Shown: in pieces, positions 4,769-57,734 of the stretch | How the letters are laid out: each line of letters starts with the position of its first letter | Position numbering within the stretch: position 1 is the stretch's first letter | Program-made: the position numbers and the translations under genes | The notes under the pieces: model-generated | Databases searched by the model: none | Told to the model about the DNA's origin: nothing | What the model saw: only the letters and a program-made list of their open reading frames with translations | NCBI GenBank assembly: GCA_023974075.1 | Contig: JAMFTG010000049.1 | Location: 624,687 to 688,686, forward strand | Origin: Chaenocephalus aceratus | Taxonomy: Eukaryota > Chordata > Actinopteri > Perciformes > Channichthyidae | Direction of reading: 5' to 3' | DNA: 64,000 bases

Positions 4769-5015
4769 TTAAACCTTGGTATGTAAAGCAATAAAACAGC
4801 GCGCTGTCGGCAGACGGACAGAAAACGAAACTCAAAGGAACAGTGAACATTATGCCTGTCAATTCTGACGTTACGTCAACAGATGGCGCTGTTGGGATGG
4901 GATCTGTAATGGAAAAAAGGATTACCCAACACAAGGCCAATAGATGGGAATTGTTTATTGTAAACTGTGAAAAAAACAAATATGCTTAATTGCGGCTCCT
5001 ACACTCTGAAACCCA
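4769..5015 (-). other. 3' UTR of C2H2 pseudogene copy (a)
   Basis: This segment is nearly identical to 25508-25755, which follows the 4-finger gene. On the minus strand it contains AATAAA within TTTACAATAAACAATTCCC downstream of the stop, a likely polyadenylation signal. The same signal follows the third zinc-finger exon at about 57178-57190. At 4769-4772 an intact TTAA marks the empty site for the element that abuts copy (b). Confidence 0.6.
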
Positions 5016-6040
<1,025 letters not shown>

Positions 6041-11343: not shown

Positions 11344-12990
11344 AGTAGATGGCGCTCCGAGCTGAATAAGGGCGTCAAATGAAGGCAAGACGCCCGCCTG
11401 GCGGAAACGCTGGATTAGGAATATCTTGTGATGAAGTGCACACTGACCTGAGCTCCAGGGGCCTCCTTCTTCTCCTCCATGCTGCTCATCAGCTGTCCTG
11501 ATGAAGACCACAGAGCTGCTTCATTATTAATATAATACAAATATTTAGATATAATTCATCATAAACTGTCAGCAGTGAAGAGGAGGAATTCAAAGAGTAT
11601 ATTCAATGATATGTTCTATTTCTAGATGCTTCTATGTAGTGTTTTATCACACCACGTGCAGTGCCTTGTCTCATCTATGCTGCTGTGACGTAAACATGGT
11701 CCAAATGGATCCATGTGGTCAATGTGATGCTAAGCAGAGGAGAACATGGTAGAAAGGTCAGATAGTTATCAACGTTACATGCACATTACTTTAACCATTA
11801 CGATAACAACTTGGTTTTCTGTGTAAATTATTATTAATATAATACAAATATTTAGATATAATTCATCATAATCTGTGTAGCAACTTACATTCTAACTTAC
11901 AGCTCACAGTTTGTTCACTTTTACTTCATTAAAATGACTTTATTCACATAGAAAGTGACATTAATGGATGTTTGAACCACGGTTATAACGCTATCCGTGT
12001 GAAACTATCACTAAGTTAACACAGAAAGCAAACATTAGCTAGTGAGACTGTTTAATGTACTCCATGTATACAGTCTTTTCTGTATATTGTGTATTCTTTA
12101 GATACTCTAGTGATATGTGTCCTGTGTGTATACTTGCTGCTAATGCTTCATTTTTTATCTTATTGCATCTTTTAAATATGTTTAACTCGTGTAATGCCTG
12201 AAAACACTTCTGCTGGGACACAATCATTTCCCAGTTTAAGATAAATCATTATTTAAATAAAGTATATCTATTTATCTAATGAGCTAAACCGTCGCTTAGC
12301 TTAGCGTTAGCAGCTAACTGAAGAACCCCATTCATTTCAATGGGAAAAATGCTACGTCGCGGTGAATGGCGATGCTAATAAGCTAGTTAGCATACCTTTA
12401 AAACCATATCTATGGCAAAGAGCACCAACACAACAACTCTAACCGTCTTAAAGACAACTGGTGTAATAAATAACTAACATAAAGTCAGCTGAGCATTACA
12501 AATCAACTGTTACTCACCAGAGCAGAACTGGAATTATTGTAGCCGATAGCCGTTAGCTTTCAGACTTTAGCTGTTAGCCGGTAGCTGTTAGCCAGTAGCT
12601 GTTAGACTTTAGCTGTTAGCCGGTAGCTGTTAGCCAGTAGCTGTTAGACTTTAGCTGTTAGCTTTCAGACTGTGGCTGTTAGACTGTAGCTGTTAGACTT
12701 TAGCTGTTAGACTTTAGCTGTTAGCTTTTAGACGGTAGCTGTTAGCCTGTAGCTGTTAGACGGTAGCTGTTAGACTGTAGCTGTTAGACTTTATTTAAAG
12801 ATAGATTGAGACTATTTTTGTCGCACATTTTAAAGTTTTTTTGTGAGTTTCTTTCTTCCAAGATTATAGCTGTTGTGTTAAATAAGATAACTTCTGATTC
12901 GTGATTAACTGTAAGCTAAGAGGTGTAAATACACTTAATGAAACCTCTGCAGGTGTTTAATCCACTCACCTCTTCTTTTCTCCTTCTTCT
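11344..12990. repeat. Dispersed 1.6-kb repeat, copy A
   Basis: This segment is highly similar to 31640-33020 (copy B) and, from 11963 on, to 45797-46600 (copy C). Shared landmarks are GATGGCGCTCCGAGCTGAAT, TGTTTGAACCACGGTTATAA, GCTTAGCGTTAGCAGCTAAC and GATTCGTGATTAACTGTAAG. No protein-coding frame is conserved among the copies. It ends in a CT-rich tract before the TIR segment at 13028. Copies differ mainly in the inner minisatellite length. Confidence 0.85.
12539..12790. repeat. GTAGCTGTTAGAC minisatellite inside copy A
   Basis: Units of 12-13 bp (TAGCTGTTAGAC, TAGCTGTTAGCC) are repeated about 18 times. The same place holds only a few units in copy B (32837-32890) and copy C (46377-46432), so the array has expanded in copy A or contracted in the others. 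Confidence 0.9.
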
Positions 12991-24840: not shown

Positions 24841-25755
24841 CCAACATTGTGGTAAAAAAAACACGTTTAATCCATGTTGTTGGTGTACTACAACTACAAA
24901 AAGCATCGGTTTGTTTTCTCATCAGGAAATGCAGACCGGCTCAAACAAACGATTTTGAATCATCATCCTCACTCATCATTTAATGTATCATATGTTCGCC
25001 GAGTTGACATGAAAGCACTAATAAATGTAGTTTCATCCACTTGAGTTTACAACCACAAAAATAATCGATTTGTTTTTATATCACATCCGACGGGAGGAAA
25101 TTCAGCAGCTCTCACTCTCGATTTTTAATCCTAATGTAATCATCATCTTCACCACGATCATTTATGTTTATGTCGCCGAATTGACATGAAAGCACTGACA
25201 AATATGAATATACTGTAGTCAACTTCATTAAAAACGTTATTAACGTGCCTAATCTCAGTAATTCACCATTTCTACGCATGACAACACACTTTGTCCGTGT
25301 TTGGCTCTCGAAGCGTTCCCGCATTGACGTCACTTCCGGCTTCCCCCAAAACTTCAAAATGAGTAGAAGGAATTTCCCCGCGATGTTCGAAATTATTGAT
25401 ATTTAACGGAACGGTATCGCTTTTTCTTTTTTAAACTGACGGTTCGAGATGACTAGTAGCCCAATATTTCATTGCACAACAGTTGTTGGGATGGTGTCAC
25501 AGGCTCTTTAAACCTTGGTATGTAAAGCAATAAAACAGCACGCTGTCGGCAGACGGACAGAAAACGAAACTCAAAGGAACAGTGAACATTATGCCTGTCA
25601 ATTCTGACGTTACGTCAACAGATGGCGCTGCTGGGATGGGATCTGTAATGGAAAAAAGGATTATCCAACACAAGGCCAATAGATGGGAATTGTTTATTGT
25701 AAACTGTGAAAAAAACAAAATATGCTTAATTGCGGCTCCTACACTCTGAAACCCA

Positions 25756-26118
<363 letters not shown>

Positions 26119-26279
26119 CTAGAACAGACGGACAGAGAAAGAGAGAAAGTCAATCTAAAAAGCATAAATACACAAGTTAACACAATAAAAACTCACTTAA
26201 TATAAACCTTGAGTTAACAAAATACTACTTATCAACTGTTTGTCTTTATTATATTTGATACAGTAATACAGCAATATTC

Positions 26280-31639: not shown

Positions 31640-33020
31640 ATGTCTGTAGATGGCGTTCCGAGCTGAATAAGGGCGTCAAATGAAGGCAAGACGCCCGCCT
31701 GGCGGAAACGCTGGAATTAGGAATATCTTGTGATGAAGTGCACACTGACCTGAGCTCCAGGGGCCTCCTTCTTCTCCTCCATGCTGCTCATCAGCTGTCC
31801 TGATGAAGACCACAGAGCTGCTTCATTATTAATATAATACAAATATTTAGATATAATTCATCATAAACTGTCAGCAGTGAAGAGGAGGAATTCAAAGAGT
31901 TTATTCAATGATATGTTCTATTTCTAGATGCTTCTATGTAGTGTTTTTATCACACCACATGCAGTGCCTTGTCTCATCTCTGCTGCTGTGACGTAAACAT
32001 GGTCCAAATGGATCCATGTGGTCAATGTGATGCTAAGCAGAGGAGAACATGGTAGAAAGGTCAGATAGTTATTAACGTTACATGCATACTTTAACCATTA
32101 CGATAACAACTTGGTTTTCTGTGTAAATTATTATTAATATAATACAAATATTTAGATATAATTCATCATAATCTGTGTAGCAACTTACATTCTAACTTAC
32201 AGCTCACAGTTAGTTCACTTTTATTTCATTAAAATGACTTTATTCACATAGAAAGTGACATTAATGGATGTTTGAACCACGGTTATAACGCTATCCGTGT
32301 GAAACTATCACTAAGTTAACACAGAAAGCAAACATTAGCTAGTGAGACTGTTTAATGTACTCCATGTATACAGTATTTTCTGTATATTGTGTATTCTTTA
32401 GATACTCTAGTGATATGTGTCCTGTGTGTATACTTGCTGCTAATGCTTCATTTGTATTATCTTATTGCATCTTTTAAATATGTTTAACTCGTGTAATGCC
32501 TGAAAACACTTCTGCTGGGACACAATCATTTCCCAGTTTAAGATAAATCATTATTTAAATAAAGTATATCTATTTATCTAATGAGCTAAACCGTCGCTTA
32601 GCTTAGCGTTAGCAGCTAACTGAGAACCCCATTCATTTCAATAGGAAAATGCTACGTCGCGGTGAATGACGATGCTAATAAGCTAGTTAGCATACATTTA
32701 AAACCATATCTATGGTAAAGAGCACCAACACAACAACTCAAACCGTCTTAAAGACAACTGGTGTAATAAATAACTAACATAAAGTCAGCTGAGCATTACA
32801 AATCAACTGTTACTCACCAGAGCCGAACTGGAATAATAACTGTAGCTGTTAGACTGTAGCTGTTAGACTGTAGCTGTTAGACGATAGCTTTCAGACTTTA
32901 TTTAAAGATAGTTTGAGACTATCTTTGTCGCACATTTTAAAGTTTTTTTTTTTCTACCAAGATTACAGCTGTTGTGTTAAATAAGATAACTTCTGATTCG
33001 TGATTAACTGTAAGCTAACA
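31640..33020. repeat. Dispersed 1.6-kb repeat, copy B (left part)
   Basis: It matches copy A from GATGGCGTTCCGAGCTGAAT to GATTAACTGTAAGCTAACA. It then stops exactly at 33020, and the expected continuation GGTGTAAATCCACTCACC is found at 41925. Copy B is thus split by the 33021-41924 insertion. Confidence 0.85.
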
Positions 33021-33091
33021 TACTCTAGGGACCAGAGGGTACAATGGTTGGACATTTACTACCGGCCGCGGTCTGCCTAGTGCCAGGGTCC

Positions 33092-33131
33092 ATATAACCG
33101 ACCGCAATGCATAGCGGGAAGTCGGTTATAT
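33092..33131. promoter_or_regulatory. Candidate recombinase site 1 (11-bp inverted repeat)
   Basis: ATATAACCGAC (33092-33102) is perfectly inverted as GTCGGTTATAT (33121-33131) around an 18-base centre. The layout resembles a pair of recombinase-binding arms around a spacer. It lies 71 bases inside the element's left end. Function is inferred. Confidence 0.4.
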
Positions 33132-33869
33132 AGACATCAACAAAATAAGTGTTTAACGGTGACTAGTTTATGCGGGGAAAAAGAGTGCTCTAAATCGGAT
33201 TAAACAGGCCATTTCATCCACACCTCACGACTCCCATCAAAAGTGATTGAAATGTACAGGAATCTGTACATTTCATCCACATTTGACGACCCGAGCAGGG
33301 TGACTTTGTTACCCAGGAATAAGTGTCTGAACGTCGGGGAAGATTACTTTAAACACAGGGTACACATGGCTGCATTACCCAGCAATTAGTGTGTGAAAGA
33401 TGGGTAAGTTTGCTGTGAATTTAAGGGACATATGGCCCTTTCAAACAGGGAGATGTTACACGGCTTTATTACCCCGGATTTAGTGTCTGAAAGCTGGGTA
33501 AGTTTACTTTAAATACAGGGTGCACATGGCTGTATTACCCATGAATTAGTGTGTGAAAGCTGGGTAAGTTTGATGTGAATTTAAGGAAGATATGGCCATT
33601 TCATCCACACCTCACGACTCCCATCAAAAGTGATTGAAATGTACAGAAATCTGTACATTTCATCCACATTTGACGACCCGAGCAGGGTGACTTTGTTACC
33701 CAGGAATAAGTGTCTGAAAGTCGGGGAAGATTACTCAGGGTATACAGGACTTTCACCCTCCCCCGTTGGCACTTAGCCGTTTTTCGAGAATCATCCATAT
33801 ACCCTAGGACCAGAGGGTACAATGGTTGGACATTTACTACCGGCCGCGGTCTGCCTAGTGTCAGGGTCC

Positions 33870-33909
33870 ATATAACCGACCGCAATGCATAGCGGGAAGT
33901 CGGTTATAT
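33870..33909. promoter_or_regulatory. Candidate recombinase site 2 (11-bp inverted repeat)
   Basis: The same ATATAACCGAC and GTCGGTTATAT arms with the same 18-base centre as at 33092, in the second 777-bp unit. Confidence 0.4.
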
Positions 33910-35074
33910 AGACATCAACAAAATAAGTGTTTAACGGTGACTAGTTTATGCGGGGAAAAGAGTGCTCTAAATCGGATTAAACAGGCCATTTCATCCACAC
34001 CTCACGACTCCCATCAAAAGTGATTGAAATGTACAGGAATCTGTACATGTCATTCACATTTGACGACCCGAGCAGGGTGACTTTGTTACCCAGGAATAAG
34101 TGTCTGAAAGCTGGGTAAGATTACTTTAAATGCAGTGTGCACATGGCTGTATTACCCATCAATTAATGTGTGAAAGCTGGGTAAGTTTGCTGTGAATTTA
34201 AGGAAGATATGGCCATTTCATCCACACCTGATGACTCCCATTAAAAGTGATTGAAATGTACAGGAATCTGTCCATGCAGGGGGACTTTCTTACCCAGGAT
34301 TTAGTGTCTGAAAGCTGGGTAAGATTACTTTAAATGCAGTGTGCACATGGCTTTATTACCCATGAATTAGTGTGTGAAAGCTGGGTGAGTTTGCTGTGAA
34401 TTTAGGGAGGGAGAGCAGCAGCAGCAGCAGCAGCAGCAGGCTGTGACCCTGGCGGAAATAAATTGATTGTTTTAGCCAGGAATAAGTGTTTAGAAGGCGG
34501 GTAAAGTGTCCCTGCAGCTCCTCCATGACGGTAATAATGATTAGAAATCATTTACAGGGCAGAAAGCTGTTTTTAAAAGTGAAAAAAAACGATTTGAAAA
34601 CCGTTTGAAATGACTGGCGGGTGCTGATGGAAAGCAGGCGGAAATACATTGATTATTTACCCAGCAAAAGGTGTTTAAAAGGCGGGGTAAAGTGTTTACT
34701 GCAGCCCCTAAGTGCCTGATTGTTTCAGAGACCCATAGCCGTGACACAGTGAACCATTTACATCCAAAAGTATCCATTTAAAAGTCATTTTTGTAGGGGG
34801 AAAAGGGTGCAGAGAGAAGCCTGAAAATGCCTCTCCAGGACCCCGGAGAGCTCGCAGGTGCTGGAGAGGGGAGACAGGCTCACAGGCAGGCCCGGGGACC
34901 CCTGCAGAACCCACAGCTGCTGGGTATCGACAAGGCGGTTTGGCAGTCCGCCTTTCAGCACCCCAAACTCGGCCCTGAGACAGCCAGTCAGCCCCCCCTC
35001 AGCTACTAGGAGCCGATATCCCTCCAAACTCTTTGCTTACTGTTTATTTCACACTGCAAGGAGACCGAGCTTGA

Positions 35075-35720
35075 AAAGCACCTCTCTGTGGCCGCTCCAA
35101 GACCCCCAAAACACGGACTAAGGAGCTCCAGGATCCCTCCCTGCCTTGAGCAAACAGGCTAGTTCACACTTCCATTACGTACACCGACAAAGCCACCTCT
35201 TCGGGGCCGCTCCAAGACCCCCAAAACACGGACGCAGCAGCCCCAGCATCTCTCCCTGACATGAGCAAACAGGTTATTTCAGACTTCCATGAAATACACC
35301 GGGGGAAAGGACCTCTCTGTGGCCGCTCCAAGACCCCCAAAACACGGACTAAGGAGCTCCAGGATCTCTCCCTGACATGCGTACTTCCAGAACCTCGCAC
35401 ACCTTGGGTCCCCGGGCCCCCGAACTTAAGCACTCCCCCACGGACTAAACCAAGATGATCACACCCTCAAGAATCTCGTGCCCCTGGGAATCTTAAAGGG
35501 GGGTCTACTTTGCGGTGCTCTATCGTCCGCCCATCAGCACCCATAGTCGGCCTTCTTGACAGCAGCACCACCCACCCTTCAGTGGAGGATTTCTCTCGTG
35601 CCCCTGGCAACACTTAAAGGGGGTCTACTTTGCGGTGCTTTACCGTCCGCCCATCGGCACCCATAGTCGGCCTTCTTCACAGCACCACCTGCCCTGCTGG
35701 AGGTTCACACTTTAACTTTT
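35075..35720. repeat. 115-bp (x3) and 126-bp (x2) tandem units
   Basis: GGCCGCTCCAAGACCCCCAA recurs at about 35090, 35205 and 35321. Then TCGTGCCCCTGG and GCACCCATAGTCGGCC recur at about 35475 and 35600. The second unit type is also found near the right end (41605-41800). Between 34600 and 35075 I see no gene. Confidence 0.75.
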
Positions 35721-35920
35721 TTTACCCTCTTCTACCTTACAAATCATCCCACACTTGAGCACTCCTCACTCGGACTAAACACCTCCATGCTACCACCAGA
35801 ACCAGGATATCGTGCCCCTGGAGATCTTAAAGGAATAAAACCCATAGTGGGCTTTAAAACAGAAGACTTAGTAATTTTAACAAACTTTATTTACAGTAAT
35901 ATTGACAGTAATAAATACAT

Positions 35921-38292
35921 TCACACAGGATATAAAGTATTTACAAGGGGACTGATTACAACACACTGCATATTTACAAGTTGATCACTGGCAAAAGTGG
36001 GTGAAGTTGGGGCAGAGTATGGCACCCTCTCTTCACCCATGTCTGAGGGGCTGTGTTCGGCCAGTGACTGGTCCCTCGTCGCTCGCCAAGCGTTGACATG
36101 TCTTGGTAGGGAGTCTTGGTAGGGAGCCGGGCTGTGCTCCTCTCCAGAGATGTCACTGTCGATGTCAATACCCGCAAAAGTGTCTTCATTTCCCGCTGCT
36201 ACTGTTGTCGATGCCGCCGCCGCTGCTTGCAGTGACTCTGTGAAGAGCAACCGAATGTCCGCAGCCTCCTTCAAAGAAGGATTATTCGCGTAAAATTTGT
36301 CCGCGGTTGCAGTGTTGTGACACATGAAATCACTAACTCTTTGGCGGTTGCCTTTGTCTTGAAACCTCTTCGCATTATCTGCGTGGACTGTGCGGAGGTC
36401 GGTGAAGTTAATGGGACCGTGGAGCCCCACATCAGCCCAGGCCAACCTCAGGGAGTAGGCAAGCTTCCTGAACGGGTTCTTCCCCTCTGTGTATAGAAAG
36501 TAACGGCTCTGGGTGCAGGTCAGCGTACCCTTGATTTCCAGCCACCTCTTCATCCATCCAAATTCTTCTACGGTGAGGTACAGCTGCGCTTCCCCGAACG
36601 CGTTGGCCGTCTTGTGGTTTGCTTACCTGTTATGACAGAGTTAGAGAGTGTCAATACAATGTAAATCATGCATATAACTGCCAGAATAAATGCATTGATT
36701 AATAGCACTCACATGAACCAGGTAGCCGAAGGCAGTGCCAGTTGTATCCGCCTTTCGGACCTCGGCGTTGGTCATGTTGGAGTAGACCCCCGGACGATGG
36801 CCGTAAATGCAGCTCCAATGAAGAGTCATATAGCCATAGAGCAGGGTCCGGGTTGCGGTAGTCGGATTGCTGGCCATCACATCCAGGAGCTGAGGGATGC
36901 GAGTGGTGGTCGAAGTCAAGCATGTCATTAGGTCGTTGTGGCTCGGCAGACCTTCCATCTTGTCACGCTTCACTTGCATCTGGTGAACAAGTACTTGTCT
37001 CTTCAGGGACTTCAATATTGCAACTACTTCCCGTTTGATTAAAATCATGTCGGTTTGGCTGAGCCTGCTCCCCTTGCACGGTGTGTCGGCCATGTACTTG
37101 AGAAAGTGTGATATATTCTTGATGTAGAAGTCGGAGGTCGTGACCTGAAGGCTTGACTTCATCAGGCTCCTGGACCACCCGCGTATCCTCTTGAGATCCC
37201 TCAAAAAGAGCCAGTCAGACAGGCGATTGAACCCGTGAGCCATGAAACTTAGGAACGACTTCACTCTGCTCAGTTTGGAAACTGTGTTTTCCTGGAGCCT
37301 CACTGGTGGGTCGATACCTGCATAATGCTCCCGGTATCCTTGAAGATACTCCTCTGTGAAATATAAACAGTACGTTAATGACAACACATCGTGTGTTACA
37401 GAAACTGCATGTGTCACATAGCCAACACACTTACCCATGACCCGTGGGAATGTGATGTCCCGCATTATATTTCCCCGGCCCCTGCCCCGGAACCAGGGGG
37501 AATGGATGGGAGGGGAGGTTGACGAGGCCTCGGTATGCATGGATGCAGGCTCTGAGGAGCTGGATGAATGTGTGTGAGAGCCAGTGGGGGACTCGCTGCA
37601 GGCGGGAATGGGAGACTTGCTGCAGGAGGGACGTTTCGACTTGGACAGCCTCGTTGGTGTCGACTCTGTTCGGGGTCGTTTCTTCAGAATGACCCGCTCT
37701 CGTTCCTCCCCATCGAACGCGGGCATGTCCCCGGCCCGCTGATCCATCCTCTGTCGCTTGTGCTTTATCCTCTGCTGCAACTTGCAGCGCAGGGATTTCA
37801 CCTCAGCAGCATATATGTCCCGCTGAGCCCTCACTGCGTTTGCCTCCAGCCTCCATTCTTTGCAGTCCGGGTTGTCACATTCATTCACCGGGGACAAGGG
37901 TGGAGGTTGTGACAGTATATCGTCGTCTGCCATCGTGTCAACAGCCCAAGCGGTAATCATTTCTATGGTGGGGTTTGTCATTCGGAGTTCATAAAGCTCC
38001 TTCTTGGCCACTGTCATTTTCAGTTTATTTTGAACCACATGTAGTTCCTCCCGGGCCAGCTCAACATGGTCTCTGGCCAAGTGGCGATCCAGCCTTGTGC
38101 CGCGGTATTCGCATCCCAGAATGGTACAGGGATGGAGCCTAATGTTGGTCCGTCCGTTGGCCAACACAGCAGAATTTTTCTTTCAACCAAGTTACGCACA
38201 CCATGGCGCCTCTGCAGGTGCTTGCTCAGGGCGAGGTAGGAACTATTACAGATCGGACAACGGACCGCCATCCGACCTGTATTCTTGAGCAT
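35921..38292 (-). CDS. C2H2 zinc finger plus tyrosine recombinase (Crypton-like), three exons
   Basis: Proposed start ATG at 38292 (MLKNTGRMAVRCPICN). Exon 1 (38292-37435) has two C2H2 fingers (CPICNSSYLALSKHLQRRH; CTILGCEYRG...HLARDH) and a low-complexity basic/Ser-rich linker. A GTAAGT...CACAG intron of 81 bp (37354-37434) joins in phase to exon 2 (37353-36713), which carries helical DNA-binding sequence and the box I Arg in YGHRPGVYSNMT (36794-36796). Exon 3 (about 36623-35921) has HKT (candidate Lys), TDLR (Arg 36392-36394), MCHN (His 36317-36319) and KFYANN (Tyr 36290-36292). Arg-His spacing is 25 and His-Tyr is 9, as in XerD-type enzymes (23 and 9). The box II His is Thr. One-base lesions near 38165 and at the exon 3 start (36623) break the frame. 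Confidence 0.72.
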
Positions 38293-38514
38293 TTCGGTAC
38301 CGGGAAATGTCACCAGAATCGTGGGTAAAAAAGAAGGAAGCGTGAAAAGACTCACGAAAGATGCACTCAGCTTATTTTCAAATCGGTGTTTGTTTTCATT
38401 TGCATCATGGTGCGGTGTCCCATTTAGGCACTCGTTAGGCGGGCAGAGATCCCTGTAATCTCCCCTCACGTTCCTCCAGAGTCTGGTTCTCACAAAGGAT
38501 ACCCGACAGTTTCG

Positions 38515-39760
38515 GGTACGACAACGTGGGATAGCAGTACCCTCCGGGCGTTCCGTCCCCCAGGGGAGGCATTGAACCCCTCTCACCTGCTCCCGGAGGA
38601 GGCAGGGGAGTCAGGTACCCAGAGGGTGGACGGCCAGGGCGAGGCCGCCCACACCGCGCTGGAGTCAGGGTCCCGGTGAGGCGCAGGACGGAGCACCCGG
38701 CAGTAGCCTCCAGCAGACCCCCGCACGGTTCCCTCGTCCCTCGGAAGGGGTGGAGAGGCGGGTTGTTTTCATCTGCTGGCGGGTTGCCGGGGGAACAGTA
38801 TCCTCCGGGGAGGCATTGAACCCCTCTCACCTGCTCCCGGAGGAGGCAGGGGAGTCAGGTACCCAGAGGGCGCACGGTGGACGGCCAGGGCCGCCACACC
38901 GCGCTGGAGTCAGGGTCCCGGTGAGGCGCAGGACGGAGCACCCGGCAGTAGCCTCCAGCAGACCCCCGCACGTTTCCCTCGTCCCTCGGAAGGGGTGGAG
39001 AGGCGGGTTGTTTTCATCTGCTGGCGGGTTGCCGGGGGAACAGTATCCTCCGGGGAGGCATTGAACCCCTCTCACCTGCTCCCGGAGGAGGCAGGGGAGT
39101 CAGGTACCCAGAGGGCGCACGGTGGACGGCCAGGGCCGCCACACCGCGCTGGAGTCAGGGTCCCGGTGAGGCGCAGGACGGAGCACCCGGCAGTAGCCTC
39201 CAGCAGACCCCCGCACGGTTCCCTCGTCCCTCGGAAGGGGTGGAGAGGCGGGTGTTTTCATCTGCTGGCGGGTTGCCGGGGGAACAGTATCCTCCGGGGA
39301 GGCATTGAACCCCTCTCACCTGCTCCCGGAGGAGGCAGGGGAGTCAGGTACCCAGAGGGCGCACGGTGGACGGCCAGGGCCGCCACACCGCGCTGGAGTC
39401 AGGGTCCCGGTGAGGCGCAGGACGGAGCACCCGGCAGTAGCCTCCAGCAGACCCCCGCACGGTTCCCTCGTCCCTCGGAAGGGGTGGAGAGGCGGGTGTT
39501 TTCATCTGCTGGCGGGTTGCCGGGGGAACAGTATCCTCCGGGGAGGCATTGAACCCCTCTCACCTGCTCCCGGAGGAGGCAGGGGAGTCAGGTACCCAGA
39601 GGGCGCACGGTGGACGGCCAGGGCCGCCACACCGCGCTGGAGTCAGGGTCCCGGTGAGGCGCAGGACGGAGCACCCGGCAGTAGCCTCCAGCAGACCCCC
39701 GCACGGTTCCCTCGTCCCTCGGAAGGGGTGGAGAGGCGGGTGTTTTCATCTGCTGGCCAG
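38515..39760. repeat. 244-bp tandem array, 5 units, upstream of recombinase gene
   Basis: GAGGCATTGAACCCCTCTCA recurs at 38567, 38811, 39056, 39300 and 39544 (spacing 244-245). Units are GC-rich and nearly identical. Stop-poor on both strands, they generate several overlapping Pro/Arg-rich open frames that I treat as artefacts. The array starts about 220 bases before the proposed recombinase start codon. Confidence 0.95.
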
Positions 39761-40270
39761 AGTCAGAAAAAGTATAAGTTAACTTTTTGGAAGAACCATA
39801 GAAAAGGGTGAAAATGGATAAATTGTATCCGAAAATAGTGTTCCATAAGGCGGGTAGAGTCCCCTGACAACTCCCCTACCTTCCTCCAGAGTCAGAAAAA
39901 GTACAAGTTAACTTTTTGGAAGAACCATAGAAAAGGGTGAAAATGGATAAATTGTATCCCAAAATAGTGTTCCATAAGGCGGGTAGAGTCCCCTGACAAC
40001 TCCCCTACCTTCCTCCAGAGTCAGAAAAAGTATAAGTTAACTTTTTGGAAGAACCATAGAAAAGGGTGAAAATGGATAAAATGTATCCCAAAATAGTGTT
40101 CCATAAGGCGGGTAGAGTCCCCTGACAACTCCCCTACCTTCCTCCAGAGTCAGAAAAAGTATAAGTTAACTTTTTGGAAGAACCATAAAAATGGGTGAAA
40201 ATGGATAAAATGTATCCCAAAATAGTGCCCCTTGAGGCGGGTAGAGTCCCCTGACAACTCCCCATGACTT
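39757..40270. repeat. 128-bp tandem array, 4 units
   Basis: CCAGAGTCAGAAAAAGTATA followed by AGTTAACTTTTTGGAAGAAC repeats at about 39757, 39885, 40014 and 40144. Units are nearly identical and the last decays. It follows directly after the 244-bp array. From 40270 to 40780 there is no supportable gene. Confidence 0.92.
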
Positions 40271-40784
40271 CCTCCAGAGACCAGTTTGAAAACTTAAAGT
40301 TTTTTGAGAACCAGGATTGGGGGTCCTATTGGCAACAATTTCATCCGATCCAAAGTGCTCCTGAGGCGGATACATTCCTCCATGATTTCCCCATCATGTG
40401 AAAATAGCTCGTTTTTTTCTAAGTGCTCTCAAAAACCGGGTTTCCGATTTCGTGCAGATGGTAGCTTGGAAAAGATGAATGAATTTTTTGGACGGAGGAG
40501 GGGAGCTCTGGTTTCCCCTCTCCGTTGTAAATTGCAACGGGGGAGTGGAAAAGTGTCCGGGGCTTCGTCCCGAAGCGCCGAAGACTTGACCCCCTCCCCC
40601 GTTGGCACTTAGCCGTTTTTCCAGAATTTTCAAAAACTTCATTTTTGACTATTTTAACATATAATTGACCGTTTTCTTAACTTTTTTTTGCTTTCCACGG
40701 GTGGGGACGCATGGCAGGCCGCCTATGAGCTTCCAAATTCGGCCTGGAACCTCCGGGAATTATGGGTTAAGCTCCATATACTGA

Positions 40785-41535
40785 CGACTCCCATTAAAAA
40801 TGCATGAAATGTACAGGAATCTGTCCATTTCAATCACATTCGATGACCCCATTAAAAATGCATGAAATGTACAGGAATCTGTCCATTTCAATCACATTCG
40901 ACGACCACATTAAAAATGCATGAAATGTACAGGAATCTGTCCATTTCAATCACATTTGATGACCGGTCCAGGGTGACTTTGTTACCCAGGAATTAGTGTC
41001 TGAAAGCTGGGGAAGATTACTTTAAATGCAGGGTACACATGGCTGCATTACCCAGCAATTAGTGTGTGAAAGCTGGGTAAGTTTGATGTGAATTTAAGCA
41101 AGATATGGCCCTTTCAAACACCCCATTAAAAATGCATGAAATGTACAGGAATCTGTCCATTTCAATCACATTGATGACCGGTCCAGGGTGACATTGTTAC
41201 CCAGGAATTAGTGTCTGAAAGCTGGGGAAGATTACTTTAAATGCAGGGTACACATGGCTGCATTACCCAGCAATTAGTGTGTGAAAGCTGGGTAAGTTTG
41301 ATGTGAATTTAAGCAAGATATGGCCCTTTCAAACACACCTCACGACTCCCATCAAAAGTGATTGAAATGTACAGGAATCTGTCCATTTCATTCACATTTG
41401 ACGACCCGAGCAGGGTGACTTTGTTACCCAGGAATAAGTATCTGAAAGCCGGGGAAGATTACTCAGGGTATACAGGACTTTCACCCTCCCCCGTTGGCAC
41501 TTAGCCGTTTTTCGAGAATCATCCATACTTCCATA
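40785..41535. repeat. Repeats at right end of recombinase element
   Basis: GCATGAAATGTACAGGAATC occurs at about 40800, 40860, 40918 and 41132. A 215-bp block beginning GGTCCAGGGTGAC occurs twice (40965, 41181). CTTTCACCCTCCCCCGTTGG and GCACTTAGCCGTTTTTCGAG at 41478-41515 match 33750-33786 in the left end. Confidence 0.85.
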
Positions 41536-41924
41536 ACATGAGACCCCCGAACCCCGGAATTAAGCACTCCCCAACGGACTAAACCCAGATGTTCACACCC
41601 TCCAGAACTTAATGCCCTGGTGAGTCAGAAAAGAGGTGTATTTTGTGGTTCTTTATCGTCCGCTCATCGGCACCCATAGTCGGCCTCTTTCACAGCAGCA
41701 GCACCCACCCTCCATGGAGGGTATTCTCGTGCCCCTGGCAACACTTGAAGGGGGTGTATTTTGCGGTGCTTTATCGTCTGCCCATCGGCACCCATAGTCG
41801 GTCCAGTCGCTGACAGGTACTTGACATCGGAGGTTGACATCGCATTTCCATTGAGCGGACATGCGTACATCTGAAGGGCAAGTTCCACGGTACCTCCGTC
41901 TCTAAGGCTGACATTTGCCTTACC

Positions 41925-42368
41925 GGTGTAAATCCACTCACCTATTGTTTTGTCCTTCTTCTTCTCTCGTTTTCTTCTTCTTCTTCTCTTCTTTTCTTCT
42001 TCTTCTTCTTCTTCTTCTTCTTCTTCTTCTTCTTCTTCTTCTTCTTCTTCTTCTTCTTCTTCTTCTTCTTTCGTGTTTATTGGCGGTTGGCAAACCAACT
42101 TGTAGGTGGATTACCGCCACCAACTGGACTGGAGTGTGGACAAGAGACTATGCAGGAAACAAGAAACAAAAGAAAGAACCAAAACTCTAGATTATTTTAA
42201 ATGTATCAATTTCTCGTAGAAATTTAATAATCTCACAATATATATTGCCTGATGTTTTCCCTAACAGCCCTGATAGCGACAAGTCATGGAATGTTGCTTT
42301 CTTCAGTGTCTGTAAAAGCACATTTCTCTGAGTACCATATGTCCTGCAAAGCAGTAAAACATGCTCAG
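41925..42368 (-). mobile_element. Copy B right part with I-type LINE 3' end and CTT tract
   Basis: GGTGTAAATCCACTCACC resumes copy B. A long CTT run (41950-42070) follows, then the minus-strand 3' end of a LINE that is also present at 46605-46905 (TTATTGGCGGTTGGCAAACC; GATTATTTTAAATGTATCAA). It breaks at 42368 where the L2-like LINE begins. Confidence 0.7.
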
Positions 42369-45300
42369 CATGTCGCCTCGAGCTGGTCCTGCTTCGCCTA
42401 TCCTGCTATAGGCCTACTGAGGAGGTTCTGCACCGGGGATATCGCGAGGAGAACGGAGCGCCTCCACATTTCGGGCCTGCTTGCACGCCTATCCGGATGC
42501 TCTGCTGGTCTGGGAAAATGGCCCATATCGGGATTCTGCTGTGCCTGTTAACTGTTTTGGACTATGAGAAGATCTCTAGTCATTCTGAGAAGACTACTGG
42601 ATTCAGGTCTGTTCTGCCACCCGCAGTGGGCATCCCCTGCAAAGGTTCGGATGTGTTGCTCAAACAATTACCTGGTTGCCTTGTCACAGTCAATCTGCTC
42701 GACTAAATATGTTTGTCTTTTTTATTTTCCTGCGATGATGGTTCTTCAGGACTGCTTCTTAAGCTCAAATCACACTCTCGCAGACTTTTCCGGTGTTTCT
42801 AAATTAGATGACAATGTATGTGTGTCATTTAAGAGGAAAAGATGCCTGGTTTTGTTGTTATTACTGTCAGGAAATGTACAACCTAACCCTGGTCCGCCCA
42901 GTAGTAATAGCCACATCTCTACTCCTGCTGATTTTAAAGCTAGGTCTGGGTTGGGTTTCATCCACTTGAATGTGCGCAGTCTGTTAGGTAAACTAGATGC
43001 TGTCCGTATCTGGGCAAAATCGACTGACGCTGACGTCATTGTCTTATCTGAAACATGGCTAAACAAATCTATTTTGGCCTCTGACATTGCCTTAAATGGT
43101 TTTAATGTGTATCGTACCGACCGGCCTAATAAAGGTGGTGGCGTTGCAATTTATGTTAAGAATAAGTTCAGTGTAACCACATTAGTTTCCAAATCGATCA
43201 GTAAGCTATTTGAATTTTTAGCCTTAAATATAGAAGTGGCAAAGGGTCAACAGGTCATGGTAGTGAGTTGTTACAGACCCCCCTCAGCTGTCAAAGACTC
43301 CTTGTCTTCACTAGCAAATCTTTTATCCCAGCTAGACTACAAGGAAATAGTGCTACTTGGAGATTTTAACTGGGACTGGTTAACTGCAGAGTCAGAGGAT
43401 TTTACAAACCTTTGTATCTCTTTAAATGTTACTCAGATTGTGGACAGTCCTACTCGCCCAAATATTAAGTCCCCTAATAAATCCTCCCTAATTATCTCAT
43501 TCTAACAAATGTTCCCCATAAATATTCTTCTGTGGGAGTATTTGCAAATGATCTGAGCGATCACTGTGTTGTAGCCACAATTAGGGACACTAAGGTCCAA
43601 AAGGTTAAGCCTCGCATTATCATCAAGAGAGACATAAAACATTTTGTGGAGCAGGGTTTTGTGCATGATCTGTTTGATTTTGATTGGAGTAAAATCGATC
43701 TGTGTGCTGATGTAGAAACCGCATGGTCTTATTTTTATCTTGGTTTTATGGAGATCATTGATAGACATGCACCCCTGCGTAAATTTAGAGTAAAGGGACG
43801 AGACAATCCTTGGTTTTCTGCTGAGCTGTCCAGTCTCCTTCATGAGAGAAACAAGGCCTGGGCAAAGGCTAGGAAATCAGGCTCAGATATAGAGTGGCTG
43901 CGTTCAGGCAGCTAAGGAATAGCTTCACTTCAAATGTCAAAAGTGCAAAGTCGAAGTACTATTTGTCGGTTACCACAGAAAACCTTCTATAAGCGGTTCT
44001 ATGTTTGATTCTGTGACTAACTCTGCTTCTGTGAACACCCCAATCCGTGACTCTGAACAACGTGGTCTGGAAAACCCTTTCAGTTTTACCCCTTTTACTA
44101 TTGGTATTGTTCATGAAGCCTTATCTAAGCTAGATCCTAGGAAACCGGCTGGCCCGGACAACGTAGAACCTTTCTTTTAAAGATAGCTGCAGATTTTATT
44201 GCTCCACCTCTCACTTCTCTTTTTAACCTCTCCCTCAGCATGAATACAATTCCAAAAGTATGGAAGTCTGCTTATGTCTTGCCTTTACTGAAAGGAGGGG
44301 AGGCAACTATTTTAAATAACTATAGGCCAATCTCTAAATTGTCAGTTCTGGCTAAGGTTCTTGAACGCCTAGTGAGTGAACAGGTAAAGGAGTTTTTATG
44401 TACAAATGACATCCTGTCTAAACATCAGTCAGGATTCAGAAAGAAACACAGCACCATCACTGCCACGATGAAAGTGGTGAATGACATTACTAGTATTTTA
44501 GATAATAAGCAGAGTTGTGCAGCTCTGTTTATTGACCTTTCCAAAGCGTTTGACACCGTTGATCACCTCATTTTAAAGCAGAGGCTAGCCAGTATAGGCA
44601 TGTCCAGCCTTGCAGTGGGGTGGTTTGTGAACTACCTCTCTGAAAGGTCCCAATGTGTTCATTTTGATGGACTGTCTTCTGAGTGGTTAAACATTTCTAA
44701 TGGTGTACCACAAGGTTCTGTTTTAGGACCACTTTTATTCTCCATATATATTAACAGCGTAGGTGATAATGTGGATGAAGCTACTTTACATTTTTATGCG
44801 GATGATACTGTGATGTATTGTGCAGGTCCCTCCATTAAGGAGGCTGGTGTTAAATTACAGGCTGTTTTTAACACTATTCAGACTCAGCTCTCTGAATTAA
44901 AGCTTCTTTTAAATGTGGATCAAACCAAGGTAATGCTCTTTTCTAAAGCAAAAAAGACACCAGAGCCTGTTTTAGATATTGTAACTACGCAAGGAACAAA
45001 ACTTGAAGTTGTTGCCTGTTACAAACACCTTGGTATCTGGCTTGATGATTGTCTCACTTTTAAACTTCATGCCAATAACCTGCTAAAAAAACTGAGGGTT
45101 AGGCTAGGGTTCTTTTTCAGAAACAAGTCCTGTTTCTCGCTTGAGGCCAGGAAAAGGCTAGTCACTGTGACCTTTGACCTGTGCTGGACTCTGGGGATCT
45201 GGTCTATATGAATGCACCTGCCAATTGCCTGGTCAAGTTAGATGCTGCGTATCACAGCGCACTGAGATTTGTGACAAACTGTAAAGCATTAACCCATCAC

Positions 45301-45797: not shown

Positions 45798-46604
45798 TAA
45801 TGGTTGTTTGAACCACGGTTATAACGCTATCCGTGTGAAACTATCACTAAGTTAACACAGAAAGCAAACATTAGCTAGCGAGACTGTTTAATGTACTCCA
45901 TGTATACAGTATTTTCTGTATATTGTGTATTCTTTAGATACTCTAGTGATATGTGTCCTGTGTGTATACTTGCTGCTAATGCTTCATTTTTATTATCTTA
46001 TTGCATCTTTTAAATGTGTTTAACTCGTGTAATGCCTGAAAACACTTCTGCTGGGACACAATCATTTCCCAGTTTAAGATAAATCATTATTTAAATAAAG
46101 TATATCTATTTATCTAACGAGCTATACCGTCGCTTAGCTTAGCGTTAGCAGCTAACTGAAGAACCCCATTCATTTCAATAGGAAAATGCTACGTCGCAGT
46201 GAATGACGATGCTAATAAGCTAGTTAGCATACCTTTAAAACCATATCTATGGTAAAGAGCACCAACACAACAACTCAAACCGTCTTAAAGACAACTGGTG
46301 TAATAAATAACTAACATAAAGTCAGCTGAGCATTACAAATCAACTGTTACTCCCCAGAGCCCAACTGGAATAATAACTGTAGCTGTTAGCCGATAGCTGT
46401 TAGACTGTAGCTTTTAGACGATAGCTTTCAGACTTTATTTAAAGATAGTTTGAGACTATCTTTGTCGCACATTTTAAATGTTTTTTTGTGAGTTTTTTTC
46501 TAACAAGATTACAGCTGTTGTGTTAAATAAGATAACTTCTGATTCGTGATTAACTGTAAGCTAACAGGTGTAAATCCACTCACCTCTTGTTTTCTTCTTC
46601 TTCT
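45797..46604. repeat. Dispersed 1.6-kb repeat, copy C
   Basis: It matches copies A and B from TGTTTGAACCACGGTTATAA through the short minisatellite (46377-46432) to GTAAGCTAACAGGTGTAAATC and CCACTCACCTCTTG. This copy gives the uninterrupted target sequence of the 33021-41924 insertion. Confidence 0.85.
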
Positions 46605-55440: not shown

Positions 55441-56087
55441 GAAATAGTCCGTTGTTATCGTTTGAACTAACGTAGTAACGGCAGGAACTGCTTCGGTAGC
55501 GTTTTTGAGGAGCTTTTTGATTACAGATTTGAAAACATCGTTGCTTGCTTTAAAAGTAGCACAATTCATTATGTCAAACCTTGGAAAGTATCTAGATATC
55601 CCTGCCCTAATGCCAAAGTAACTGCACACTGAATATGTGTCGCCGTTTGATGTCTGTCTGGACCGCTGCGTAAAAAAGAGGGTTTCTGCTCCGTTACTTC
55701 TCTTCTTACTTCTATAAGAATAAAACAAAGTGGACAGAGATCTCTTTTTCTCCCCCTCTTCTCCCCGCTGCAGCCCAGCAGCTGATCTCAAAGCACACTC
55801 CCCTCTCCTGCAGGGGGTGTGGTCAGCTGCAGCTCACAGAATCAGCCCCCTGCAAAAACAGCGCTGGAAAGAGCAAATAGAGCGAAATGAGGCGTGGCTA
55901 AAATGCAGGATCTTTTTGGTATTTTGAAAAAAAAACTATATTTATATACTTTATATAGGTATGGCCCTACAATATATTGTTCAAATATCGCATGATAGGT
56001 CCACTTTAAGTGAGTTTTTATTGTGTTAACTTGTGTATTTATGCTTTTTAGATTGACTATCTCTCTTTCTCTGTCCGTCTGTTCTAG

Positions 56088-57123
<1,036 letters not shown>

Positions 57124-57734
57124 TGGGTTTAAGAGTGTAGGAGCCGCAATTAAGCATATTTTGGTTTTTTCACAGTTTACAATAAACAATTCCCATCTAT
57201 AGAGTGGCGAAGTCACGCCCATCTACTTCCGGTCCATGGGACCTTATTTCGGAAAAATAATGTATTGAAGTCAATGGAGAGAGAAAACTTATCTTTCGAT
57301 CCCGTTTGAATAGTGCCATGAGTTACACATATGATGTTTGTCAATCTTAAAAAATTATTTCCATGTCAAAAGAGACACAATTTGTCGTAAAAACTGTTGA
57401 AATATAAGACAACTACGCAAAAAAAATATGCAACTACAAAGACTACTAATCCCAGACTAATCGCGTAAGTGATGTCACAATTGTCTTCCTCCACTAATAC
57501 CTCATTCACATCAACGGTGTTTCGGGGCCGGTTCGGAGCTGGAGCTTGAAAAGCACCGGGTTTTCCTCTTCACACCGCAGCGGAGCAGCCTCTTAGCTCC
57601 GGAATCCGGTTCATTTCAAGCACCAAAAAATGTCCGGCCAGAGCAAAAGCATTGCATATGTCACTCTTACGTCGAGGCGGGGGCGGGATCAACAACAACA
57701 AGAAGCCCGCGTTTGATCCAGTTTGTACACAACG

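Follow-up and report, generated by a model that had tools for sequence, protein, structure and literature searches.

A 64,000-nucleotide stretch of the Chaenocephalus aceratus genome (assembly GCA_023974075.1, contig JAMFTG010000049.1, positions 624,687 to 688,686 of the forward strand; the window below means this whole stretch) carries an insert that is one copy of a young, recently active, multicopy transposon, and this icefish element is very probably a DNA transposon mobilised by its own tyrosine recombinase. The insert interrupts one of three copies (A, B and C) of a repeat whose mutual identity is 89-97% in the parts compared. Copy B runs from 31646 to 33020 and continues at 41925, beyond the insert. 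Identity with copy A is 97.0% across 1,249 bp; identity with copy C is 96.5% across 778 bp in the last part of the segment before the insert and 95.7% in 42046-42370. An earlier note on this DNA had described copy C as uninterrupted and the halves of copy B as separated by 8,904 bp with no base lost, and flank alignment bears this out: when the flanks in copy B were fused and aligned with copy C, the junction aligned with zero bases gained or lost, the nearest disturbance being a difference in TTC-repeat length that starts about 25 bp to its right. The 17-mer CTAACAGGTGTAAATCC occurs exactly once in the window, in copy C (mean of 0.00 in 100 shuffles); versions with two mismatches lie in copy A and, at 41919, at the insert's right end. 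Copy A is likewise uninterrupted across the junction but diverges soon afterwards. For a further copy, L033, an uninterrupted paralog lies in L040: the fused flanks align with it over 190 bp (86% identity) and join exactly. The fused flank of L081 agrees with the L031 flank over six bases spanning the junction. The 14 fused flanks were compared with the window and the fetched loci only, and within that set no empty paralog was found for the other insertions.

The left-end search that the earlier note had proposed was run on the 1.06-Gb assembly (3,032 contigs) with the first 300 bases of the insert and returned at least 110 matches, of which 40 were full length at 99-100% identity, 12 were full length at 96-98% and the rest were shorter pieces; because 40 of 706 first-look candidates were scored, copy counts are a lower bound. 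The 12 matches at 96-98% sit at the position of an internal left-end-like copy. Loci were read for 20 plus 18 left ends and as 20 stretches of 10 kb. With loci that have common flanks counted once (for example L024/L027, L043/L075 and L063/L064), there were 38 distinct left contexts: 32 non-tandem flanks, together with two tandem and four internal-copy (TCCATA) contexts that were excluded from the 32. Every one of the 32 flanks breaks at one identical base and then reads ATACTCTAGGG or ATACCCTAGGG, and the flank itself ends in a CTWAC-like core (C 28, T 29, A or T 30, A 27, C 32). These 32 flanks with a single boundary, like the exact empty sites, argue against an assembly or segmental-duplication artefact rather than a transposon, an explanation that we find barely credible even though some flanks recur (L024 equals L027, L063 equals L064) and some copies lie on short contigs. 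The left flanks of L024 (on C3, near the contig start) and L027 (on the short contig C2218) are identical, probably as an assembly duplicate or an alternative haplotype.

The right ends are equally uniform. The right core was CTTAC in all 15 insertions for which both ends were tabulated, and in 20 of 20 when L086, L088, L089, L090 and L091 were added. In the tabulation that supplied these five, with 19 solo right contexts, L088 and L090 adjoin divergent relatives of the element but are still counted among the 20 insertions; L030 and L089, with a common right context and different left flanks, were counted as two. The ends L056/L078, L067/L081, L054/L082, L060/L084, L059/L086 and L066/L089 were paired by position and strand on one contig, the intervening DNA being only partly read, and no right end was found for L073 or L087. 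The sequences that L088 and L090 adjoin, ATACTCTAGGGACTGGTGGGTACACTGG and ATACCTTAGGGACTTGTGTGTACACTG, are apparently the left ends of divergent sister families with an almost identical attachment site. The comparison among copies moves both ends of the insert one base to the left of where the earlier note had drawn them (to 33020-41923), while the clean junction that it reported stands: the A at 33020 directly follows the target core in all 32 flanks, whereas GCCTTAC is followed by A in 11, by T in three and by C in one of 15 insertions. The window copy by itself is compatible with this A belonging to the target, but that boundary is ruled out by L067/L081: its target and the paralog of that target beside L031 both have T there, and since the left junction of L067 has A, the A belongs to the element. 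Neither differing termini nor signs that the halves of copy B were never adjacent, both named in the earlier note as grounds for rejecting its reading, were found.

The copies are closely similar to each other, with median pairwise differences of 0.0015 over a 650-bp piece of recombinase exon (n=15), 0.0059 over another piece (n=18) and 0.0033 over the right 300 bp (n=10). Eight copies with both ends visible span about 4.5 to 9.5 kb and differ in repeat number and by deletions. Head-to-tail junctions reading GCCTTAC-ATACYC or TCCTTAC-ATACYC were found at nine places on eight contigs (C2125, with two, C13, C3, C443, C1997, C1740, C560 and C58), and GCCTTAC-ATACTCTAGGG is what the joined ends of a circle would read. 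A G-to-T variant of the right end, TTTTCCTTAC, was read at tandem junctions alone (L009, L019, L022, L058 and L076) and is absent from all 19 solo right contexts, a pattern that would suit the spread of arrays as whole units. At L034 and L039, element sequence is inverted and near-palindromic on one contig, which reflects either an assembly artefact or an inverted insertion.

When flanks were joined in register, the target proved to be a quasi-palindrome, approximately CTWAC-N4-GTWAG. Complementarity between left core and right flank reached 37 positions at offset 4, against 11-26 at 11 other offsets, and the right half of the target is looser than the left (G 9, T 9, W 15 and A 9 of 15 at +5 to +8). 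In L031 the element lies at the palindromic site CCCTAAC-ACTA-GTTAGGG of one repeat family; in L067/L081 it lies on the opposite strand of a paralogous site, reading CCCTAAC-TAGT-GTTTGTG, and, judging by its left flank, L062 is also inserted at that opposite-strand site. The junction formed by the element itself, CTTAC-ATAC-TCTAG, is laid out like the target. An 11-8-11 inverted repeat across the circle junction was considered as the recombinase site and rejected: it fits the targets less well than CTWAC-N4-GTWAG, and the exchange point falls outside its spacer. The outermost 150 bp of the two ends share no exact 8-9-bp repeat, whether inverted or direct.

Target and element can be told apart in an insertion whose left core was read and differs from CTTAC. 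In all 13 such informative pairs (the window, L030, L031, L033, L035, L036, L042, L018/L072, L056/L078, L067/L081, L060/L084, L059/L086 and L066/L089) the left side carries the target core and the right side that of the element. Because every pair is one-sided in the same way and the A at the left junction is constant, exchange is confined to either side of one C; it thus looks limited to about one base, compared with the 6-8-bp overlap typical of tyrosine recombinases. The strongest competing account is an ordinary two-strand reaction with a 6-bp overlap (CTWA^C-N4-G^TWAG), in which the one-sidedness would come from mismatch repair of the same strand each time; we regard it as a serious contender, somewhat short of an even chance. 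Sites of these enzymes are typically two 11-13-bp inverted repeats with a 6-8-bp spacer, according to PMC3212892, and the quasi-palindromic target suits such a site. However, the strands of a 6-bp heteroduplex segregate, so about half of the insertions should show the opposite arrangement. This account must instead accommodate a single direction in all 13 informative pairs (2^-13 if the directions were even), with none reversed, and the element spacer at the left junction of every one of the 32 distinct non-tandem flanks read.

The earlier note had recognised one tyrosine recombinase gene in the insert, and the order of catalytic motifs, weak Pfam matches and profile comparison all support this prediction. 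Relative to protein P0001, the window copy has one frameshift, near 38167-38182, and 36641-38182 is 88% identical to proteins of Pseudochaenichthys georgianus and 87% identical to one of Champsocephalus esox. Full-length recombinase matches without a stop were present in seven of the 20 fetched stretches (L029, L030, L031, L037, L040, L043 and L046); L035 and L038 had no recombinase match. Successive searches gave 20, then 7, then 24 family proteins, other teleosts being compared as predicted proteins. The second search yielded four new members from short contigs, 65-72% identical to P0014, and one fused annotation, P0025; the third added, among others, proteins of Lates japonicus (34%) and Cottoperca gobio (47%). 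P0014 and P0021-P0024, on short contigs from ena, jgi and lgn sources, are 44-47% identical to P0001. The predicted icefish protein P0025, alpha-tectorin-like, has a recombinase-family fragment at its start (64% over 15% of P0014), which reflects either annotation fusion or exon capture. The recombinase has two C2H2-like fingers at its N-terminus and, towards the C-terminus, the catalytic residues R, K, T (for H), R, H and Y. R (GHRPG), K (HKTA), R (FTxLRT) and H (MCH) are in register with XerD-type enzymes, and the Y, counted by eye, lies nine residues after the last H, as in XerD. In profile alignments the catalytic R, R and H were in register with XerC, XerD, FimB, FimE and lambda Int (P values of 0.0036 and 0.0034; hhalign probability 9%), and the domain alone scored 31.1 (probability 11%), whereas 150 column shuffles reached at most 23.6 and the reversed profile 15.1. 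Phage_integrase (PF00589) matched P0024 (E 0.011) and P0014 (E 0.026), and the SAM-like domain PF02899 matched P0026 (E 0.2). Pfam gave no other enzyme match for the recombinase frames and P0001. NCBIfam gave no match for P0001 and P0014, nothing relevant was found in PHROGs or, by sequence, in the PDB, and none of 160 pattern matches in IMG/VR was confirmed.

Several observations tell against a transposon driven by this enzyme. The hhalign probabilities are only 9-11% and the alignments end before the Tyr. All Pfam recombinase scores, including those above, fall below the curated cut-offs, and most members scanned had no recombinase match (for PF00589 and PF02899, none in P0001, P0004, P0007, P0009, P0021, P0022, P0023, P0027, P0030 or three window frames). 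The first conserved His of the recombinase motif is Thr in P0001, P0004, P0007, P0008, P0009, P0013, P0014, P0021, P0022, P0023, P0024 and P0026; P0012 lacks the LRT after this position, and the remaining members do not extend to that stretch. AlphaFold models were too poor for use, with a mean predicted local distance difference test score of 40.1 (P0001 with A2) or 37.1 (P0009 with A3), and Foldseek with the latter model returned no recombinase and no match at E <1. The circle itself was not observed, only tandem junctions, and tandem copies could also arise by insertion beside an existing copy or by unequal crossing-over. Left-end pieces are more divergent (median 0.0259; n=45, internal copies included). 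The left-end query includes the element spacer, and with 40 of 706 candidates scored, left ends with a target spacer are possibly under-represented. Finally, the base after CTTAC in the window copy is C and in both empty paralogs A, which fits only if this base changed or differed.

From the fixed ends, clean empty sites, shared target, tandem junctions and motif set, we propose a route of transposition. The recombinase would join both element ends into a circle and would bind the inverted arms that the circle junction (CTTAC-ATAC-TCTAG) and the target both have. Strand exchange at the border of the left arm would then leave the CTWAC of the target on the left and place the element's CTTAC on the right. 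Since neither junction showed a mixture of target and element spacers, either one strand exchange would leave the product and replication would finish it, as in integrons, or the heteroduplex would always be repaired in one direction. Single-strand exchange completed by replication and strictly one-sided repair are thus two open readings.

Both ends can fold. The left-end hairpin is identical in 71 of 77 occurrences (counted over partly overlapping loci), and support for the right-end hairpin is modest (z -2.3, with 7 of 200 shuffles as good); speculatively, they might serve a single-stranded form of the element. A right-end hairpin, one-point joining, tandem copies, insertion after a fixed short motif and the lack of target duplication would also suit a single-strand element of Helitron-like or IS200/IS605-like kind in which the recombinase-like gene is just a passenger. 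Helitrons end in TC...CTRR, however, and these ends do not; nor was there an HUH or helicase match (the Pfam scan covered the recombinase frames only) or a frame of sufficient length outside the recombinase and the array; besides the recombinase frames the longest has 281 amino acids and lies within the 244-bp array, and outside that array none exceeds 200. We consider such an origin very improbable.

Taken as a DNA transposon mobilised by its own recombinase, the element is best filed as a tyrosine recombinase transposon variant that is Crypton-like in its working. Like the Cryptons (CryptonA/I/F/S), it has this recombinase as its sole enzyme, is DNA-only and lacks terminal inverted repeats. 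Excerpts of PMC3212892 describe fungal Cryptons as having a short (4-6 bp) terminal direct repeat, thought to be the recombination site, propose a circle, and report copies without a recombinase. A comparable 5-bp terminal repeat, often imperfect, is present here as CTWAC on the left and CTTAC on the right. Unlike Cryptons, the icefish element is 8.9 kb long with long repeat arrays common to both ends, and its recombinase has a C2H2-like N-terminus and Thr at the second residue of the R-H-R-Y tetrad. Unlike animal Crypton recombinases, it showed no DUF3504 match up to E 10 among the family proteins scanned (at HMMER sensitivity, without a positive control). The suggestion in the earlier note that the insert may be an undescribed type holds to this extent: no family model scanned scored above its cut-off, and no description was found among the best-ranked papers of literature searched by title and start of abstract, with subscription papers, Repbase and Dfam outside the search.

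DUF3435 is the domain of Starship captains, and it had no match among the proteins scanned (again without a positive control). The attachment site nevertheless resembles that of the fungal Hephaestus Starships: the circle junction reads TTAC-ATACTCT-A, the targets are TWAC-like with A at +8 in 9 of 15, and the canonical Hephaestus site is TTAC(N7)A in the parts seen of PMC12153272 and TTAC in those of PMC11623449. Recombinase mobilisation and a short direct repeat are likewise shared. A true Starship relative in a vertebrate is unlikely all the same, because the icefish element is far smaller, has one gene and neither visible cargo nor cargo-sized frames, and lacks an exact 8-mer terminal inverted repeat in its outermost 150 bp; its recombinase gene is not at the element's edge, lying about 2.9 kb from the nearer end, and the motif likeness was spotted after the fact.

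Integron cassettes are exchanged at one position with a folded end, and Tn916 tolerates differing cores; both systems are bacterial. Coupling sequences of the Tn916 type are expected to segregate both ways. The icefish element resembles integrons in one-position exchange and a folded end, and Tn916 in its differing cores, with no kinship detected beyond the recombinase profile. The DIRS, Ngaro and VIPER retrotransposons also share the recombinase, and DIRS1 elements are present in Antarctic nototheniids (PMC5941688, in part), but no icefish frame outside the recombinase and the array is long enough for reverse transcriptase plus RNase H. Only tentatively, and against our own expectation, can the element be regarded as founding a new superfamily of vertebrate tyrosine recombinase transposons, integron-like in single-base joining, one strand exchange, hairpin ends and completion by replication, with an attachment site that it either has in common with fungal Starships or has reached by convergence.

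The direct repeats, tandem arrays and blocks common to both ends that the earlier note reported are all present (Table 1), with 40883-41527 matching 33209-33799 at 82.8% in the same orientation. Elsewhere in the window, an 84-bp-type tandem array occurs three times, once inverted (4997-5963, 25508-26184 and 56022-57200), with long mutual matches mostly 82-94% identical.

Table 1. Features of the icefish element and its empty sites, in window coordinates.
Feature	Position	Strand	Basis or remark
Whole element, 8,904 bp, A-TACTCTAGGG ... GCCTTAC	33020..41923	.	Ends set by other copies
Target core CTAAC at left junction, target-derived	33015..33019	+	32 distinct left flanks
Element's own right core CTTAC	41919..41923	+	20/20 insertions with solo right end
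Left-end hairpin CATATAACCGACCGC...GTCGGTTATATAG	33091..33133	.	DNA fold of 33081-33140, z -4.3
Right-end hairpin TAAGGC-TGACATTT-GCCTTA	41903..41922	.	One base from exchange point
Left subterminal repeats, including internal left-end copy from 33799	33020..34408	+	Self-comparison
Block repeated near right end (41545-41801, 83.9%, same orientation)	35410..35670	+	
Tyrosine recombinase gene, predicted introns	35921..38292 (about)	-	Homology, motifs
Tandem array, 244-bp unit x 4.9	38563..39757	+	
Tandem array, 129-bp unit x 4.0	39757..40279	+	
Right subterminal repeats, blocks common with left ones, same orientation	40790..41527	+	Self-comparison
Empty site, paralogous copy C	46561..46577	+	Sequence match, flank alignment
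Empty site, paralogous copy A, 2 mismatches	12916..12932	+	Sequence match, flank alignment

In most hosts Cryptons are present at very low copy number, and the more than 2,700 copies in medaka are mostly diverged (PMC3212892, excerpts). In contrast to such low-copy Cryptons, the icefish family offers many near-identical copies, uninterrupted enzyme frames in several of them, defined ends and target, and readable empty sites. As judged from sequence, it may supply a natural site-specific recombinase from a vertebrate. Because the spacers of element and target differ, each insertion records which strands were exchanged, so the mechanism of a eukaryotic tyrosine recombinase transposon becomes readable in sequence data and open to bench tests afterwards.

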